From contig PDZX01000018.1 in the NCBI GenBank assembly GCA_002753185.1, positions 1 through 64,000 of the forward strand: a stretch of DNA of 64,000 bases, read 5' to 3'. The notes beneath the pieces are model-generated. The model searched no databases. It had not been told where the DNA came from and was given only the letters and a program-made list of their open reading frames with translations. The position numbers and the translations under genes were made by a program. This DNA is from Magnetococcales bacterium WMHbin3. Its GTDB lineage: Bacteria > Pseudomonadota > Magnetococcia > Magnetococcales > Magnetaquicoccaceae. Numbering within the stretch: position 1 is the first letter of the stretch; each line of letters starts with the position of its first letter. Of this stretch, positions 40,377-57,001 are shown in pieces.

Positions 40377-41708
40377 ATGAGAATTGACCGTCTGACGTTG
40401 CGGAATTTCAAGGGGTTCGACTCCAGGGAGTTTCAATTCCATCCCGAATTCAACCTGATCGTTGGCAGAAATGGCACGGGAAAGACCAGCATCCTCGACG
40501 CCCTGAGCGTGGCGACCGGCAGTTGGTTTCTTGGGGTTCGAGACGTGCTCGCACGGCATATCCGGGCCAACGAAGTGCTCCTCAAACGCCACGAATACAA
40601 AAATACCACCGAAAATGAACAAGACGATTCCAGCATCATCCTATGGGAGTCGTGTTTCCCCTGTGAGATCACCGCGCATGGCAGGGTACAGGAACGGGAT
40701 ATCACCTGGAGCCGTTCGTTGAACTCATCGCGAGGTCGCACCACGCATGGCAATGCGTCGAAGATCAAGGAGCTTGCGTTTCGCTCCGATCAGGCCATTC
40801 GCAATGGCGAGGAGATCCGGTTGCCGCTGATTTCCTATTACGGTACCGGCAGGCTTTGGCCGGAGTCTCGCGAGGCTTATACCGTTTCGGATCCCACAAA
40901 GGTTGCCAGCAAGGAGGAGCTATCCCGTCTTGCCGGGTACTGGGGCAGCACCGATCCCCGGATTTCCGCCAGTCAACTCACCCGCTGGATCGCACAGCAA
41001 TCATGGATCACCTTTCAACAGTACAATCGTGTCCCCCCCATTTTCCTCGCTATCCGTCACGCATTGATCTCTTGTATCGAAAATGCCACCAGTATCGAGT
41101 TCGACGCCAAACTGGGGGAAGTCGTTGTTGAAATTGACGGGGTTTTCCAGCCATTCACAAATTTGAGCGATGGCCAACGCAGCATGCTCGCCATGGTGGG
41201 GGACATCGCCCAAAAAGCCGCCAAACTCAATCCCCACCTTGGCGGCAGGGTTCTCCGGGAAACGCTTGGCGTGGTGTTGATCGATGAACTCGATCTGCAT
41301 TTGCACCCGCGCTGGCAACGGCGCGTCATCGACGATTTGCGCCGGACTTTTCCAAAAATCCAGTTCATTTGCACGACCCATTCCCCATTCCTGATTCAGT
41401 CACTCCGTAGCGGGGAAGAACTGATCATGCTGGATGGTCAGCCCACCGCCGATTTGTGGAATATGTCGCTGGAGGAAATCGCCACGGGTATCCAGCGAGT
41501 GCCTGACCTGCGGGCGAGTCAACGCTATGCCGAAATGAAAGGGGTGGCAAAAGCGTATCTCGAACGCCTCGAAGAAGGCCCCAAAGCACCAGAACAGGAA
41601 CTCGCGGATTTCAAGCAGCGGTTGGCGGAGTCGATTGCTCCCTATGCGGACAATCCAGCATTTCAGGCATTTCTTGAAATGAAGCGCGTGGTTAAGCTTG
41701 GAGAATAG
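40377..41708 (+). CDS. AAA-family ATPase of a Septu-like defence pair (PtuA-like)
   Basis: A 443-residue ABC/SMC-like ATPase: Walker A 'GRNGTGKTS' at 30-38, signature 'NLSDGQRSMLAM', Walker B 'VVLIDELDLHLHPRWQ' near 300, and H-loop 'CTTHSPFLIQS'. Lengths and motifs fit the AAA_21/PtuA group rather than a transporter, as there is no membrane partner. The next gene, 3 bp downstream, encodes an HNH nuclease, which is the Septu (PtuAB) arrangement; the same pair also serves as a retron effector, but no reverse transcriptase is present. GGAGG lies just before the ATG. Confidence 0.85.
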   Translation: MRIDRLTLRNFKGFDSREFQFHPEFNLIVGRNGTGKTSILDALSVATGSWFLGVRDVLARHIRANEVLLKRHEYKNTTENEQDDSSIILWESCFPCEITAHGRVQERDITWSRSLNSSRGRTTHGNASKIKELAFRSDQAIRNGEEIRLPLISYYGTGRLWPESREAYTVSDPTKVASKEELSRLAGYWGSTDPRISASQLTRWIAQQSWITFQQYNRVPPIFLAIRHALISCIENATSIEFDAKLGEVVVEIDGVFQPFTNLSDGQRSMLAMVGDIAQKAAKLNPHLGGRVLRETLGVVLIDELDLHLHPRWQRRVIDDLRRTFPKIQFICTTHSPFLIQSLRSGEELIMLDGQPTADLWNMSLEEIATGIQRVPDLRASQRYAEMKGVAKAYLERLEEGPKAPEQELADFKQRLAESIAPYADNPAFQAFLEMKRVVKLGE

Positions 41709-41711
41709 ATC

Positions 41712-42446
41712 ATGAGGCCAATCCAACGAGGTCCATCGCCACGACCGCATGATTATGAAAATTATCAAGACGCCAAGCCCGATCTCGTGTCTCGGCTAGG
41801 CCCCTATTGCAGCTTCTGCGAAAGGCCGGTTGTCACCCTGTTGGCCGTTGAACATGTTCAACCAAAAGATCTGCCGGCATATGCCACCCTGATCGGTCGC
41901 TGGAATAATTTCCTCCTCGCCTGCGTCAACTGCAATTCAATAAAAGGAATCAAGAATGTTGTCCCGTCAGCCATTCTTTTGCCGGATAGGGATAACACCT
42001 TTGCCGCCTTTGCATACCTTCCGAATGGCACAATCGCACCCTCCGACCTGGCGATTGACAGCGGCCTCCAGACGATCGCCAATCGGACGCTTGCCTTGAC
42101 GGGCCTGGACAAGGCGGCTCTGAGCACCCCGGACGAAAACGGCAGGCAAGTGGCCTTGGATCGCGTATCACAAAGGATGGAGGCTTGGCTTACCGCTGCG
42201 GAGGCCAATAACGATATTCAGTACTCGCCGGATAATGCCAAGCTTCAAGATTACGTTGTTAAACTTGCTGTGGAAAAAGGATTTTTCAGTATTTGGATGA
42301 CGGTGTTCGCAGGCGACCCAAACATGCTTGGTCGTTTCGTGAAGGCGTTCCATGGCACGAGCGGGAGCGGGTGTTTCAACGCCAATGGCGGCAATGTCAC
42401 GCCCGCACCCAATCCCGACGGACTGCCCAACGGAGGAAAAATCTGA
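41712..42446 (+). CDS. HNH endonuclease of a Septu-like defence pair (PtuB-like)
   Basis: A 244-residue protein with an N-terminal HNH domain: zinc cysteines in 'YCSFCERP' (33, 36) and 'CVNCN' (71, 74), the catalytic His in 'VEHVQPK' (48) and the Asn in 'RWNNFLLAC'. The rest is helical and ends in a Gly/Asn-rich tail. Together with the ATPase it should cut nucleic acid when phage infection triggers the complex. It is 3 bp downstream of the ATPase gene and surely co-transcribed. Confidence 0.85.
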   Translation: MRPIQRGPSPRPHDYENYQDAKPDLVSRLGPYCSFCERPVVTLLAVEHVQPKDLPAYATLIGRWNNFLLACVNCNSIKGIKNVVPSAILLPDRDNTFAAFAYLPNGTIAPSDLAIDSGLQTIANRTLALTGLDKAALSTPDENGRQVALDRVSQRMEAWLTAAEANNDIQYSPDNAKLQDYVVKLAVEKGFFSIWMTVFAGDPNMLGRFVKAFHGTSGSGCFNANGGNVTPAPNPDGLPNGGKI

Positions 42447-48233: not shown

Positions 48234-48605
48234 ATGACCACGAACAACAATCTGACCTCGTTCTTTCGCGGGGACACCAAGGCATGGAATCTGGAGTTCA
48301 AGGATGGCGCGGGCAATCCGATCGACATCACCAACCATGTGTTGTGGTTCACCATGAAACGGACCCTGGAGGACCTGGACGAAAACGCCGCGCTGCAAAA
48401 ACGGATCACCTTTCCGCCGGGCGCGGAGTCGGAATCCGGCAAGGGGACCCTGCTGTTGACCTCCGCCGAGACCGGAGCGCTGCGGCCAGGGAGCTATTTT
48501 TACGATCTGCAGAAGGTCATTCCGGAAAACCCGCCCGTCGTCGCCACCATCATGAGCGGCAAGGTCGTGGTGCAGGCGGACATCACCCGCGACAGTGGAC
48601 CCTGA
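48234..48605 (+). CDS. Phage-tail-like protein resembling baseplate BppU N-domain
   Basis: A 123-residue protein with the pattern of BppU-type phage baseplate domains: 'FFRGDTKAWNLEFKDGAGNP' followed by 'IDITNHVLWFTMKRT' and later 'TGALRPGSYFYDLQKV', with an Ig-like beta pattern throughout. The match is by memory of the family, so the label is tentative. GGAG lies four bases before the ATG. It is the first of three tightly spaced plus-strand genes with no other phage gene around. Confidence 0.6.
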   Translation: MTTNNNLTSFFRGDTKAWNLEFKDGAGNPIDITNHVLWFTMKRTLEDLDENAALQKRITFPPGAESESGKGTLLLTSAETGALRPGSYFYDLQKVIPENPPVVATIMSGKVVVQADITRDSGP

Positions 48606-48607
48606 GC

Positions 48608-49135
48608 ATGGCCGACACCACGTTACAGGTCATCCTGGGCGGGGAACCGCTGCACATCTCCTTCGACGAAAGCCGGATTCACGTCAGCACGGTCAACGAG
48701 ACCATCCATGTACGCAATCTCGACGGCGGCATGCGGCTGACCATCAAGGAGGAACGGCTGGAATTCTCCTCACCACTGGTCCTGGCCATGCCCGGTTGGC
48801 CGTTCGGGCCGAATCCGAACCGCGTGGAGGCCTTGGCCAGGGATGTGCCCACGGTGGTGGACCGTCTGGTGATGCCGGCCTATTACCGGGTGGCCAAGTG
48901 GCTCGTGCTGGTCACGGACGAGGCGAACGGCTTGTCCGTCACCAGCGAAATCAAGTGCATGCGCGGCAAGGAGGCGGTGCATTTCCTGGAATACGCCATC
49001 CTGGGGGATGCCGGCCAGCTCCCCTACGAGGTGGATGTGACGGAACAGGGCGAAGTGGTGGAGCTGTGGATCACCAGTCGCCATGCCGACGGACCACTCA
49101 CCGTACGGACAACCAAAATCGGCATTTTCAACTAA
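48608..49135 (+). CDS. Unknown beta-rich protein in tail-like cassette
   Basis: A 175-residue protein without signal peptide or membrane helix, rich in predicted strands ('TTLQVILGGEPLHISFDESR', 'GEVVELWITSRHADGPLTV'). I do not recognise the family. It begins 2 bp after the stop of the BppU-like gene and ends 22 bp before the tail-fibre-like gene, so all three are co-expressed. A tail assembly or fibre-associated role is guilt by association only. Confidence 0.6.
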   Translation: MADTTLQVILGGEPLHISFDESRIHVSTVNETIHVRNLDGGMRLTIKEERLEFSSPLVLAMPGWPFGPNPNRVEALARDVPTVVDRLVMPAYYRVAKWLVLVTDEANGLSVTSEIKCMRGKEAVHFLEYAILGDAGQLPYEVDVTEQGEVVELWITSRHADGPLTVRTTKIGIFN

Positions 49136-49157
49136 CACCAAAACTGGAGAAAACAAC

Positions 49158-50276
49158 ATGGGAATACCAGCGCTTTTCACGGCCCGTGGCGGGCTGGACA
49201 TCGGCATCCACATCATCCCCGGCAACGGCGCGCCGAACGGGGGCCGCGCCGATGAGGCGGTGATCGGTTCGTTCCACGCCGATCAGAGCAATGGCCACCT
49301 CTACATCAAGAAGGCCAGCGGCGCCGGCCTGGAGAAATGGACCCGGCTGCAAAACCAGCAGGACCTCGCCGCCGCCCTGCTGGGGCTTTCCTGGCGCGAG
49401 CCGGTGCTCTGCCTGGACAACACGGCGTATGCCGATGTGGCCGCCGCCGAAACGGCGGCCAATACCGGCATGGTGAACGGCGTGGCGGTGGGGGATGGCA
49501 GCCGCATCCTGTTCACCGGGATCGCCGGGGCGAACAAGAACGTTTTTCTCATCAGTGGCACGCCGGGCAGCGGGGCCACCCTGGTGGAGGACGGCAACGA
49601 CGCCAGCAAGGGCGATACCGTGCAGGTGCAGGACGGGACCTGGGCGGGCCACAAGTTCAATTTCAATGGCGCCATCTGGGTCTCCACCGGCGCCGAGGAT
49701 TGGACCGAAGTGGGCTTCATCCGCACGTTCCTGGGCAAGTCGGGAGTCGGCAACGAGATGCCCTCCTATGCCTCGGTCAATATCGTGGACAACGGCGAAA
49801 GCCTGGAGAGCGGCATCGGCGCCCTGGACGCCGCCATCGGCCCGCAGGTGACCTCCACGCGGCACATTGCCGCCTCGGCCACGATCACGGCCAACCTTTC
49901 GACCCTGGACCGGGTCCTGGCCGACGCCAAGAGCGAAAAGAAGGTGGACAACGTCACCGCCCTGACCGTGCTCGACACGGTGGCGGTGGATCAGGTGCTT
50001 TCCGCCGAATGGACGATCCATTCCCGTTCCGTGGCCACGCCCTCCCAGGTGAACGTCATCAAGGTGATGGCGCTGCACAACGGCACCAGCGCGGCGGACG
50101 CCACCGGGGTCAACCACAACTGGTTCGCCGAAATGCGGCTGGGTGGCGAGATCGCCACGCTCCATTTCGAGGTGGGCTTGAGCGGCAGCGGAGGCGCCCA
50201 GGTGATGCAGCTCAAGGGATCCTGCAATTCGGCGGTACACGTGCGCCTCACCCGTTCCGTGCTCAACGAACAGTGA
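49158..50276 (+). CDS. Tail-fibre-like structural protein
   Basis: A 372-residue protein. The N-terminal part has short repeats seen in tail fibres ('GSFHADQSNGHLYIKKASGA', 'WTRLQNQQDLAAAL'). A central domain around 'QVQDGTWAGHKFNFNGAIWV' resembles fibre attachment modules, and the beta-rich C-terminal half could be a receptor-binding or trimerisation domain. There is no signal peptide. CTGGAG precedes the ATG. The last 14 bp overlap the end of the convergent glycosyltransferase gene. Confidence 0.6.
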   Translation: MGIPALFTARGGLDIGIHIIPGNGAPNGGRADEAVIGSFHADQSNGHLYIKKASGAGLEKWTRLQNQQDLAAALLGLSWREPVLCLDNTAYADVAAAETAANTGMVNGVAVGDGSRILFTGIAGANKNVFLISGTPGSGATLVEDGNDASKGDTVQVQDGTWAGHKFNFNGAIWVSTGAEDWTEVGFIRTFLGKSGVGNEMPSYASVNIVDNGESLESGIGALDAAIGPQVTSTRHIAASATITANLSTLDRVLADAKSEKKVDNVTALTVLDTVAVDQVLSAEWTIHSRSVATPSQVNVIKVMALHNGTSAADATGVNHNWFAEMRLGGEIATLHFEVGLSGSGGAQVMQLKGSCNSAVHVRLTRSVLNEQ

Positions 50277-51615
50277 TTTCCCTCCCGCACGGCGGCCTGG
50301 CCGCCGTGCGGGAAAATTCCGGCAAGGCGTTGCGCATCTCCTCGACCAGCGGGGTCCAGTCACCGGGAGCGCGTTGCCGAAACAGACGCATGACCCCCGG
50401 ATACCAGGGGGAATCTTCCCGTTCCGCCAGCCAGCGCCAATCCGCGCCGACGCACGGCAGCACCACCCAGCACGGTTTTCCCAGTGCCCCGCACAGGTGG
50501 GCGACAGCCGTGTCCACGGTGATCAGCAGGTCCAGTTGCGCAAGCACCGCCGCCGTATCGGCGAAGTCGCGGATCCGGGCGCCCAGATCCACCAGGGGCT
50601 GATCCAAGGGGGGCGATTGGGCCTCCATTGCCCCCGCGCCCTTCTGCACGCTGATCCAGGTCACCCCCGGCACCCCCCAAAGCGACGCCAGAACGGCGAG
50701 ACCGGGCAAGGAACGGTTGGCGTCGTTGACATGATCCGGCCGGCCCTTCCATGCCAGACCGACACGCAGCCCCGCGCCTGGCGGCATGGCATCGCGCCAG
50801 AACGCCATCCGCTCCGGGGAGGCGCTCAAATAGGGCAGAGAGGCCGGAATCGAAGCCTCTTCCGTGCCCATGAGACAGGGGATGGACAGCAAAAAAACCC
50901 AGTAATCATGCCGGGGAATGGCGGAAAGATCCCAGTCCAGCGCCAGATTGCCAACCCCGCGCAACCCGGTGGCAAGCAATGAAATCAGCTGACGGTCGCA
51001 CAGAAACGTGATCCGCGCCGCCCCGCGACCACTCAGGATCGGCAAATAGCGGCAAAACTGAATCGCATCCCCGAACCCCTGCTCCCAGATCACCAACAGG
51101 CTCTTGCCCGCCAGATCCTCCCCTCGCCAGGCTGGAAATGGCAGATCGGGGGGGATTACGGCCCGTCCGGTCAGGCGCGGATGATAACGGAATTCGAACC
51201 GTCGCCACCCCTCCGCGAACCGTCCAGAGCGCAACAACAACTGCGCGAGGTTCAGATTGGCCTCCGGCAACTCCGGCAACTGCCACAACGCCGCTTCGGC
51301 CTCCTCGAAACGGCCAAGGCCCATCAGCAACACCCCCAGATTGGCCAGCGCCTCGCCGTAATCCGGCCGGACCCGCAGCGCCTCCCGATAGGCGGCCTCG
51401 GCCTCGGCGGGGCGTCGCAGATCGTTGAGAATCACCCCCAGATTGTAATGGGCCACGGCCAGATCCGGCAGGCGGCGCGTCAGCTCCCGGTAGGCGGCCA
51501 CCACCGCGTCAGGCCGATTGCGGCGGGTGAGGTGATCGATCAGGGCGGCATGGGCCTCCAGGCTCAGGGGCCGGAGGCGTACCGCCTTGCGCAGGGCAGT
51601 TTCGGCAGCATCCAT
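50263..51615 (-). CDS. TPR protein with GT9-like glycosyltransferase domain
   Basis: A 450-residue protein: three to four TPR units (about 5-140; 'VAHYNLGVILNDLRRPAEAE') and a glycosyltransferase-B-like domain (about 150-435) with 'PFPAWRGEDLAGKSLLVIWE', 'QGFGDAIQF' and the family 9-like end 'LDLLITVDTAVAHLCGALGK'. It is a shorter paralogue of the protein at 54654-56333. Its start lies just past the glnA terminator. The C-terminal codons run through a perfect 14-bp inverted repeat. Confidence 0.82.
   Translation of the reverse strand: MDAAETALRKAVRLRPLSLEAHAALIDHLTRRNRPDAVVAAYRELTRRLPDLAVAHYNLGVILNDLRRPAEAEAAYREALRVRPDYGEALANLGVLLMGLGRFEEAEAALWQLPELPEANLNLAQLLLRSGRFAEGWRRFEFRYHPRLTGRAVIPPDLPFPAWRGEDLAGKSLLVIWEQGFGDAIQFCRYLPILSGRGAARITFLCDRQLISLLATGLRGVGNLALDWDLSAIPRHDYWVFLLSIPCLMGTEEASIPASLPYLSASPERMAFWRDAMPPGAGLRVGLAWKGRPDHVNDANRSLPGLAVLASLWGVPGVTWISVQKGAGAMEAQSPPLDQPLVDLGARIRDFADTAAVLAQLDLLITVDTAVAHLCGALGKPCWVVLPCVGADWRWLAEREDSPWYPGVMRLFRQRAPGDWTPLVEEMRNALPEFSRTAARPPCGREITVR
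50284..50312. terminator. Strong inverted repeat at convergent gene ends
   Basis: CCCGCACGGCGGCC and its exact complement form a 14-bp stem around a single base, 7 bp after the tail-fibre stop. It lies inside the last codons of the convergent glycosyltransferase gene. Without a real T-run it is at best a Rho-assisted, two-way transcript end. Confidence 0.6.
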
Positions 51616-54653: not shown

Positions 54654-56333
54654 TCACCAACGCCGCAGCGCTTCGCACACCCGCTCCACCACCCCGGACC
54701 AATCCCCCTGACAGGTCTGACGGAACAGACGCATCCCCTGCGGATACCAGGGGGAGGCCTCGCCATCACTCATCCAGCGGGGATCGGCGCCCCGCAACGG
54801 CAGCAGCACCCAGCAGGGCCGACCCAGGGATCCGGCCAGGTGCGCCGGCGCGGAATCGACGGTGATCAACAGATCCAGGCAGGAGAGAATGGCGGCGGTG
54901 TCCGCGCAATCACGGAGCATGCCCCCCGCGTGCCACAGCGGCTGACCCGGCGGGGGACGCAACGCCTCCCCCTCCCCCGCCCCCTTCTGCAACCCGATGA
55001 ATACCACGCCGGGCACTCGCCACAACGGCGCCAGCACCGCCAGACCGGGCAGGGAACGCCAGAAATCGCGCGGATGAGCCGGATTGCCACGCCAGACCAG
55101 ACCCACCCGCATGGCCCCGACCGGCAGACGCACCTCCCATTCGGCCCGGCGGCCCTCCGGTACCCCCAGATAGGGAATGGCCGCCGTCACCCCCACGCCC
55201 AACCGCCCCGGCAGGGAGAGCATGAACACCCAGAAATCGTGCCCGACATGGGCCACCCGCTCGAAGCCGGAATCCAGGACCTGGTCCACCCCCTCCAGGG
55301 TGGCGAACAACGGAGCCAGAGGGGCCGGACAGACCACGGTCACCCGCCGCGCCCCCCGCGCCTCGAGCAGGGCAACGAACCGCCAATAGTGCAACAGATC
55401 CCCCAACCCCTGCTCCGGGAGCACCAGCACCGCCTTGCCCGCCAGATCCTCGCCGCGCCACATGGGAAACGGCAGATCGGGGGGAACGGTGCGCATCCCC
55501 TCCCGGTCGCTCTTGGCCGGATGCATGCGCGCCTCGCACCAGGGCCAGGATTCGGCGAACCGGCCCAGCCGTTGATACAACAACGCCAGATTGTACGCCG
55601 CGTCGGCATGATCCGGATTGACCCGCACGGCCTCCCGATAGGCCGCCTCGGCCTCTGCGCTCCGCTCCTCCGGCCATTCGGCCAGCAGGATGCCCAACCG
55701 GTTCCAGGCATCCCCGCACGCCGGATCCAACGCCAATGCCCGCCGCAAGGCCGCCTCCGCCTCGATCCAGCGCTCCGCCTCCTTGAACAACACTCCCAGG
55801 TTGATCCATGTCACGACATCCTCCGGAGCAAACCGCAAGGCCTCCCGGTAACAGGCCTCGGCCTCGGCGCAACGCCCCTGTTCCGCCAGCGTCAAACCCA
55901 GATTGCACCACGGATCCGGCTCACCGGGGGCCAGGCGCAACCCCTCCCGGTAGCAGGCCTCGGCCTCGCCGGGACGCCCCCGCTCCCGCAGCAGGTTGCC
56001 CAAATGGAAGCGAACCGATGCCGCGCCCGGATCCAGATCCATGGCCTGGCGCAACAGGGTTTCCGCCTCGTCGTGACGGTTTTTGGCCAGCAACGACGCG
56101 GCCAGATGGATCCAATTCTGCTCCTCTCCCGGATGCAGTTCCACGGCGCGCGACAACACGGCGATGGCCTCCTCGTGCCGCCCCAGCATCCGCAAGGCGG
56201 CCCCCAGCGCGGTGCGAAAAAAGCCGTGTCCGGGATGCAAAGCCACCAGCCGTCCGGCCTCGACCGCCAGCGTGGCCCAATCCCCCTGGGCGAACAGGGC
56301 CACCAACCCCTCCTCGGCCTGACGGATCACCAT
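54654..56333 (-). CDS. TPR protein with GT9-like glycosyltransferase domain
   Basis: A 559-residue protein with about seven TPR units (about 1-240; 'GLRLAPGEPDPWCNLGLTL', 'AYREAVRVNPDHADAAYNLA') and a glycosyltransferase-like domain (about 265-555; 'PFPMWRGEDLAGKAVLVLPE', 'QGLGDLLHYWRF', 'LDLLITVDSAPAHLAGSLGR'). It is a paralogue of 50263-51615. The ATG at 56333 overlaps the last 7 bp of the SafE-like gene, fixing the start and making the two co-translated. The acceptor substrate is unknown. Confidence 0.83.
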   Translation of the reverse strand: MVIRQAEEGLVALFAQGDWATLAVEAGRLVALHPGHGFFRTALGAALRMLGRHEEAIAVLSRAVELHPGEEQNWIHLAASLLAKNRHDEAETLLRQAMDLDPGAASVRFHLGNLLRERGRPGEAEACYREGLRLAPGEPDPWCNLGLTLAEQGRCAEAEACYREALRFAPEDVVTWINLGVLFKEAERWIEAEAALRRALALDPACGDAWNRLGILLAEWPEERSAEAEAAYREAVRVNPDHADAAYNLALLYQRLGRFAESWPWCEARMHPAKSDREGMRTVPPDLPFPMWRGEDLAGKAVLVLPEQGLGDLLHYWRFVALLEARGARRVTVVCPAPLAPLFATLEGVDQVLDSGFERVAHVGHDFWVFMLSLPGRLGVGVTAAIPYLGVPEGRRAEWEVRLPVGAMRVGLVWRGNPAHPRDFWRSLPGLAVLAPLWRVPGVVFIGLQKGAGEGEALRPPPGQPLWHAGGMLRDCADTAAILSCLDLLITVDSAPAHLAGSLGRPCWVLLPLRGADPRWMSDGEASPWYPQGMRLFRQTCQGDWSGVVERVCEALRRW

Positions 56334-57001
56334 GGCATGAGCGCCATCCCGCGCCGCAGACTGATGACCCCCATCAGGATGATCAGCATCCCGGCCACGA
56401 AGAGAATCCGCCCGCGCGCCCGCTGGTCCAGCCAGGTGGCCAGCATGCCGAACCCCAACATGGCAGGCAATGTCCCCAATCCGAAGGCGGTCAGCACCGC
56501 GACCCCGCCGAGCGCGGAACCGGTCTCGAAGGCCTTGGCCTGAAACGCCCAGTGCATCCCGCACGGCAGGAATCCGGTCAAAATCCCCATGCCCAGGACG
56601 CGCCGGGTTCGGGAGGCCCCGGCGGCCAGGCGCAGACGACGCGCCAGCCAGCCATCCGCAACCGCCGGACGCAGGGCGAACAGACCACAACTCTCCAGCC
56701 CCATGACGATCATGATCACCCCCACCACCAAATGGGGGATGCCAAACCACGCGGAAGGACGTATGATGGTGACGAGCAGCGATCCGAGCCAGCCGCTCGC
56801 CGCCCCCAGGGTCAGATAGGTCCCCAGGCGTCCCATGGAGTAGAACAGCGGCAGACGGAACCGGCGCCACGCCCCGGCGGCCTCCGGGTCATTGTCCAGG
56901 GAACAGGCCAGGGCCAGCCCGCCGCACATCCCGACGCAATGGACGCTGGCCAAAAGCGTGGTGAAAAACACCATCCATAACTCAAACCCATTCGGAACCA
57001 T
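56327..57001 (-). CDS. Sulfite exporter TauE/SafE-family protein of cbb3 clusters
   Basis: A 224-residue membrane protein with about six helices and the opening 'LLASVHCVGMCGGLALACS'; Cys/Met-rich 'HCVGMCGG' and 'GFLPCGMHWA' are typical of the group found beside ccoGHIS genes and thought to handle copper or assembly of cbb3 oxidase. The ATG at 57001 has GGGAGAGACC upstream. It is head-to-head with ccoI: their start codons share the CCATGG at 56998-57003, leaving no intergenic DNA. An internal start at 56974 is possible. Confidence 0.82.
   Translation of the reverse strand: MVPNGFELWMVFFTTLLASVHCVGMCGGLALACSLDNDPEAAGAWRRFRLPLFYSMGRLGTYLTLGAASGWLGSLLVTIIRPSAWFGIPHLVVGVIMIVMGLESCGLFALRPAVADGWLARRLRLAAGASRTRRVLGMGILTGFLPCGMHWAFQAKAFETGSALGGVAVLTAFGLGTLPAMLGFGMLATWLDQRARGRILFVAGMLIILMGVISLRRGMALMPW

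Follow-up and report, generated by a model that had tools for sequence, protein, structure and literature searches.

A described protein close to P1, the first gene product of the locus analysed here, is the collar protein p132 of phage T5. In the cited part of PMC10038345, p132 is a dodecameric Ig-fold collar, related by DALI to the N-terminal domain of BppU and regarded as a landmark of the T5-like group; it carries three grafted side fibres, probably through about 50 residues at the N-terminus of the fibre. The protein is 140 residues long, and BppU is an anchor of receptor-binding proteins, according to the section of PMC7291167 used here. In phage R4C an Ig-like attachment domain is located at the neck, and its authors, in the section cited, doubt that it has a role in adsorption (PMC10276861). 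With p132 at the tip and the R4C domain at the neck, such folds occur at both places.

The window, a stretch of 64,000 nucleotides (64 kb) in contig C122 of a Magnetococcales genome (4.6 Mb in 157 contigs, 93% complete), contains three co-directional ORFs on the plus strand, all with ATG starts and separated by gaps of only 2 and 22 bp: P1 (48234..48605, 123 aa), P2 (48608..49135, 175 aa) and P3 (49158..50276, 372 aa). Directly 3' of P3, within the 3' end of a convergent TPR-glycosyltransferase ORF, lies a GC-rich inverted repeat (50284..50312), detected as a self-match on the other strand and found in similar form, with the loop changed, in the sister species G032. The repeat has no T-run, and a terminator scan of the sequence gave no call there. 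Homologues of P1 and P2 were found in 22 and 18, respectively, of the 48 Magnetococcales genomes, with the gene order kept in most stretches. Hence, the frames are genes and chance ORFs are ruled out, and the three tightly linked genes claimed by the first-pass annotation are real, with homologous trios across the order. An assembly artefact is ruled out as well, since the independent assembly of G032 shows the three genes arranged and joined to their neighbour in the same way.

The three-gene block in Magnetococcales phages

The same genome holds two further copies of the P1-P2-P3 block. One of them, on contig C36, is part of a lambda-type siphoprophage in which the genes for terminase GpA, portal, S49 protease, decoration D, capsid E and FII-type head closure are followed by P1, P2, P3, two small genes, a 1270-aa fibre and the tail terminator, and these by a tail protein with an Ig-like domain, Rha and the tape measure. 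The other copy, on the 4.4-kb contig C156, is also located directly after FII, and P3 homologues are carried at two other loci of the genome. The large C36 fibre (L009:11908-15720, minus strand) has collagen repeats and a C-terminal beta-propeller-like part (YNCE/NHL matches). In the C156 copy (L023:2850-4369) the match to P3 is divided between two frames, the first of which contains a stop; the gene may be broken or wrongly assembled.

Stretches around all 30 other P1 places in the order were fetched. By their equal lengths, L027 and L109 are probably one contig, and likewise L026 and part of the G032 contig. At least one core virion gene was present in 23 of the 30 stretches, and four had only small prophage genes (x110 or x118). 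Three were without any of these: L082, which is the orphan copy of the sister species; L105, where a contig end leaves a fragment of P1; and L107, in which P1 sits between gpJ-like and collagen-fibre genes. All three genes were detected in 25 of the 30 places, with FII just upstream in 18 of those 25, and the order FII-P1-P2-P3 recurs in two IMG/VR contigs (L132, L133). When IMG/VR viral contigs were searched, P2 as query gave two contigs and P1 none; by tblastn against phages, the window P1 gave one record, the P1 of L086 a different one, and P2 and P3 nothing. The P1 of a public record named Magnetococcales is 96% identical to that of the window. Fragments of P1 fused to unrelated frames were seen at L105:5318-6205 (at a contig end) and L109:3180-3368, either relic fusions or assembly chimeras. 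Upstream of the block in L089 (1-2124) there are ORFs that, judged by eye, we take to resemble radical-SAM and PAPS-reductase proteins.

Homology of all three genes, together with their shared order and strand, strongly indicates that the trio is an orphan copy of a three-gene siphophage/prophage fibre module of Magnetococcales. The placement between FII and the tail terminator is not shared by the orphans of the window and of G032, which have no such virion genes around them. Literature on Magnetococcales prophages contained nothing on this cassette, as judged by title, and none joining BppU and Magnetococcus was found.

A recent copy of the resident prophages is ruled out, as the P1 sequences of C36 and C156 form a group (97/90) that excludes the orphan pair, in a tree that comprised the window and 26 of the 30 other places (L105, L108, L109 and L110, fragments or not extracted, were left out). 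By path length the orphan is nearest to a prophage of genome G041, and the two are grouped in the P2 tree (88/68) and not resolved in the P1 tree; the P2 tree was made without L100 and L102, which had misplaced start points, and some of its rows begin upstream of a sure start codon. The loci in the alignments (A1, 24 rows; A2, 16; A3, 21) were chosen by hand.

Predicted folds of P1, P2 and P3

Family searches with P1-P3 in Pfam gave nothing at E ≤ 1, and in NCBIfam P1 and P2 gave nothing and P3 a single row at E=0.045, far under the cut-off. In PHROGs, P1 matched phrog_1084 (3.6e-16, unknown function) and phrog_3304, 'L-shaped tail fiber protein assembly' (3.9e-4). In hhalign comparisons the P1 profile did not match BppU of TP901-1 (probability 0.3%), and NPS was aligned with P=0.034 and a probability of 1.5%. 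Sequence searches of solved structures gave nothing significant, the best E for P1 being 0.11. Regarding a sequence relation to BppU, the phrog_3304 match is the sole hint.

The P1 model, built from 24 sequences, has a pLDDT of 86.5 and a pTM of 0.77. Its best matches among solved structures are the tail-tip chains of T5 (7qg9) and DT57C (8hqz), with Z 10.6, rmsd 2.7 and 114 aligned. The structure row of the T5 chain carries no name, and the chain is read as p132 because its 140 residues are the length of that protein. The next matches, the R4C portal-adaptor chain (9.2), the Bas63 connector chain (8.9) and the P74-26 neck chain (8.6), hardly exceed an unrelated row at 8.3, and BppU of TP901-1 (4v96) appears at Z 7.4, amid unrelated Ig folds. 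In a viral structure library the model had 142 matches at E ≤ 0.001; among the best 50 of these most are unnamed, with one named as a BppU N-terminal domain and a few as minor tail proteins. P1 is thus predicted to consist of a single Ig-type domain with the p132 fold, and both phrog_1084 and the fold point to an Ig-fold fibre anchor of the T5 p132/BppU-N class. The label 'BppU-like', given to it in the first-pass annotation, agrees with the predicted fold, p132 being the better match within the class, and finds no counterpart in sequence, where BppU was not matched. Moreover, P1 directly precedes a collagen-type fibre gene in L094, within the slot between FII and the terminator, and in L103 and L107, downstream of tail-tip genes; this arrangement supports P1 as a fibre anchor.

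The model of P3 (16 sequences) has a mean pLDDT of 75.2 and a pTM of 0.36, with a C-domain at about 90 and low confidence outside it. Residues 250-372 match gp9 of T4 (1qex) with Z 12.5, rmsd 2.5 and 111 aligned, the KP1 baseplate chain with Z 10.4, and phage tailspikes and a fibre with Z 8.4-9.5, and from rank 9 on the rows are other proteins at Z ≤ 5.3. This segment would therefore fold as a gp9/tailspike-type C-terminal beta-sandwich, predicted here on a single chain, and the description of the protein as fibre-like is borne out for these residues. Structure prediction had been proposed beforehand as a check on the cassette, and the models of P1 and of the P3 C-domain do match phage tail proteins.

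For P2, the family search (Pfam, PHROGs, NCBIfam) gave no match. Its profile aligned with the C-terminal domain of P3 with P=0.006 and a probability of 6%, only a hint of a likeness, and its N-terminus reached about 3 bits at best against fibre N-termini. Judged by its sequence, P2 is probably a beta-rich protein, and it can be considered a candidate fibre; in the complete module it is always accompanied by P1 and P3.

The orphan site and signs of selection

To the left of the trio lies a divergent ABC-transporter set (ABC_tran, ABC2_membrane_2, ABC_transp_aux, DUF4340), and to the right the convergent TPR-glycosyltransferase ORF, which overlaps P3 by 14 bp, followed by glutamine synthetase and the ammonium transporter. 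The window has TPR-glycosyltransferase genes at 50263-51615 and 54654-56870; the family is repeated across the genome, and 36 of the 39 DNA matches obtained fall on the end of the TPR-glycosyltransferase gene. The absence of capsid and terminase genes nearby, claimed from the start, is confirmed: a tblastn search of the 64-kb window with 18 non-trio proteins of the C36 prophage gave nothing better than E=0.028, so that no terminase, portal, capsid or tail gene of the C36 type was found at the locus. Integrase and lysis genes were not found among the neighbouring proteins scanned.

The glycosyltransferase next door, and a P3 C-domain of a kind that phage proteins binding to surfaces also have, would be compatible with a cell-surface adhesin or appendage made of phage fibre proteins, but that neighbour belongs to a genome-repeated family and runs in the opposite direction, and no signal-peptide-like start was seen by eye in the three proteins. 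We consider this reading very improbable, and no evidence was found for the novel surface structure that the first-pass annotation had mentioned.

At 40377-42446, about 6 kb from the trio, the window contains a type I Septu-like pair, PtuA (PADLOC E=1.9e-134) and PtuB with HNH (4.1e-74). In G032, a HepT-like gene (L082:9779-10198; PF01934, 1e-25) is located between the ABC genes and P1, and a low-GC3 insert (L082:477-6028) adjoins the glycosyltransferase and encodes a metallophosphatase-like protein similar to a PADLOC 'Effector' (1.1e-11). The trio locus fits an accessory region, which says nothing direct on the trio.

The orphan block of G032 (L082) is found at this very site and shares the convergent junction. 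In nine of nine other congeners the site is without the trio, and the next tested gene after the ABC genes is the ammonium transporter; in the two carriers the ammonium transporter and glutamine synthetase are turned round, beyond the trio and the glycosyltransferase. Since the site is shared by two species, the insertion or rearrangement is older than their split.

Between the window and G032, dN/dS was 0.15 for P1, 0.26 for P2 and 0.37 for P3 (upper bounds 0.46, 0.51 and 0.61), and 0.10-0.27 for four flanking genes. For the whole trio the value was 0.30 (0.20-0.42), at or above the range of six phage pairs (0.11-0.28), which were hand-chosen and share loci, and its dS (0.16) was lower than that of the flanking genes (0.20-0.29). 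All three frames are intact in both species, without indels, and a neutral substitution simulation introduced 3.2 stops on average, with zero stops in 4% of runs. The lack of any broken frame and the trio dN/dS of 0.30 disfavour passive decay, and purifying selection outside a prophage, as in domesticated phage genes, is observed in one species pair by a simple pairwise method. Hence, the trio is probably kept by selection, on evidence that is good but not final.

The main rival is an inert prophage relic, in which a deletion would have left three structural genes beside the ABC-transporter operon, unbroken by chance; the first-pass annotation had itself named the remnant of a recent deletion as the outcome that would speak against its proposal. 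The prophage origin is clear, only two species carry the trio, no promoter-like site was found for it, and among the seven genes compared dN/dS is highest in P3. Against decay stand the upper bounds given above, the intact frames and the fact that what stayed is the exact functional unit P1-P2-P3. We regard the relic as quite possible, if somewhat doubtful.

Tailocin fibre sets can lie away from the core genes, and the trio might accordingly belong to a tailocin or gene-transfer particle whose other genes are at another locus, an idea close to the 'spare fibre set for a tailocin' suggested earlier. A contractile (R-type) tailocin is ruled against by Phage_sheath_1 (PF04984), which had no match in this genome and was positive in 3 of 14 control genomes; with a genome 93% complete and in 157 contigs, this absence is not final. 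Three tape-measure matches above the cut-off are confined to C36, the complete prophage, and to C145 and C154, short contigs with siphoprophage tail genes. Terminase_6N was not found in the genome either, which tells little, as the C36 prophage terminase is of the GpA type. The spare fibre set for a tailocin is not supported, and we hold the idea of a tailocin or transfer particle to be highly unlikely, though a tailocin of the non-contractile kind may exist.

Possible action of the host copy and relation to described systems

We tentatively favour, at somewhat less than even chances, an orphan siphophage fibre module that the host has retained, with a putative P1 ring bearing P2/P3 fibres, and whose host copy perhaps acts in trans. 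In the parent virion, the ring would sit at the neck or tail and grip the N-terminal tails of the P2 and P3 fibres, whose outer domains would contact the host surface. The slot between FII and the terminator suggests, from gene order, a neck position for the three-gene form. The 'domesticated tail tip' of the first-pass annotation is therefore sustained in part: the prophage trios, the folds, the shared site and a dN/dS below 1 indicate that the cassette is phage-tail-like and probably domesticated, but most of its relatives are placed after the head-closure gene and ahead of the tail terminator, a position that would rather suit fibres of a neck or collar.

As the host copy comes without head or tube, a virion is its obvious docking partner. 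Docking on a virion, and the frequency in the order of prophages that have this slot, make an effect in trans the first choice, with the inert relic as a strong rival. More weakly, the host-made products might be built into the particles of related phages or prophages with a matching slot, and this incorporation might alter or spoil the adsorption of those particles. The two further copies of the module in the genome mean that possible target virions exist; the orphan P1 is 51-53% identical to the resident prophage copy, and mixing may fail at such a distance. A different outcome, which we consider improbable, is that the orphan trio replaces the phage's own set altogether, so that the progeny get host-supplied fibres and are either misdirected, as a defence, or, in the case of a useful prophage, redirected.

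The module is common in Magnetococcales phages and has no named function in the libraries used; it places a T5-collar-type predicted fold near the head-tail junction in lambda-type phages, and the orphan is a case of such a fibre module standing alone and kept in a host. Apparently, a virus part has here been retained by its host, a modest case but one open to testing, and, if the action in trans were true, it would amount to host-made control over phage adsorption.

Compared with T5 p132, P1 is alike in predicted fold and in being an anchor beside fibre genes, with 17-18% identity; p132 is placed at the tail tip around p140, whereas the P1 gene belongs to the head-tail junction region of lambda-type phages. 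An Ig-type fold is common to P1 and the N-terminal domain of BppU from TP901-1, but P1 has neither the linker nor the C-terminal domain of BppU. The C-domain of P3 resembles those of gp9, tailspikes and fibres (1qex, 9f4a, 6e1r, 7xy1 and 6c72, with Z of 12.5, 10.4, 9.5, 8.8 and 8.4, respectively) at 7-12% identity. The siphoprophage block (C36; L083-L086; L132, L133) is the nearest counterpart, alike in its three genes, their order and strand, with P1 about 40-63% identical in most places. There the block is flanked by virion genes, whereas the copy in the window stands alone among host genes.
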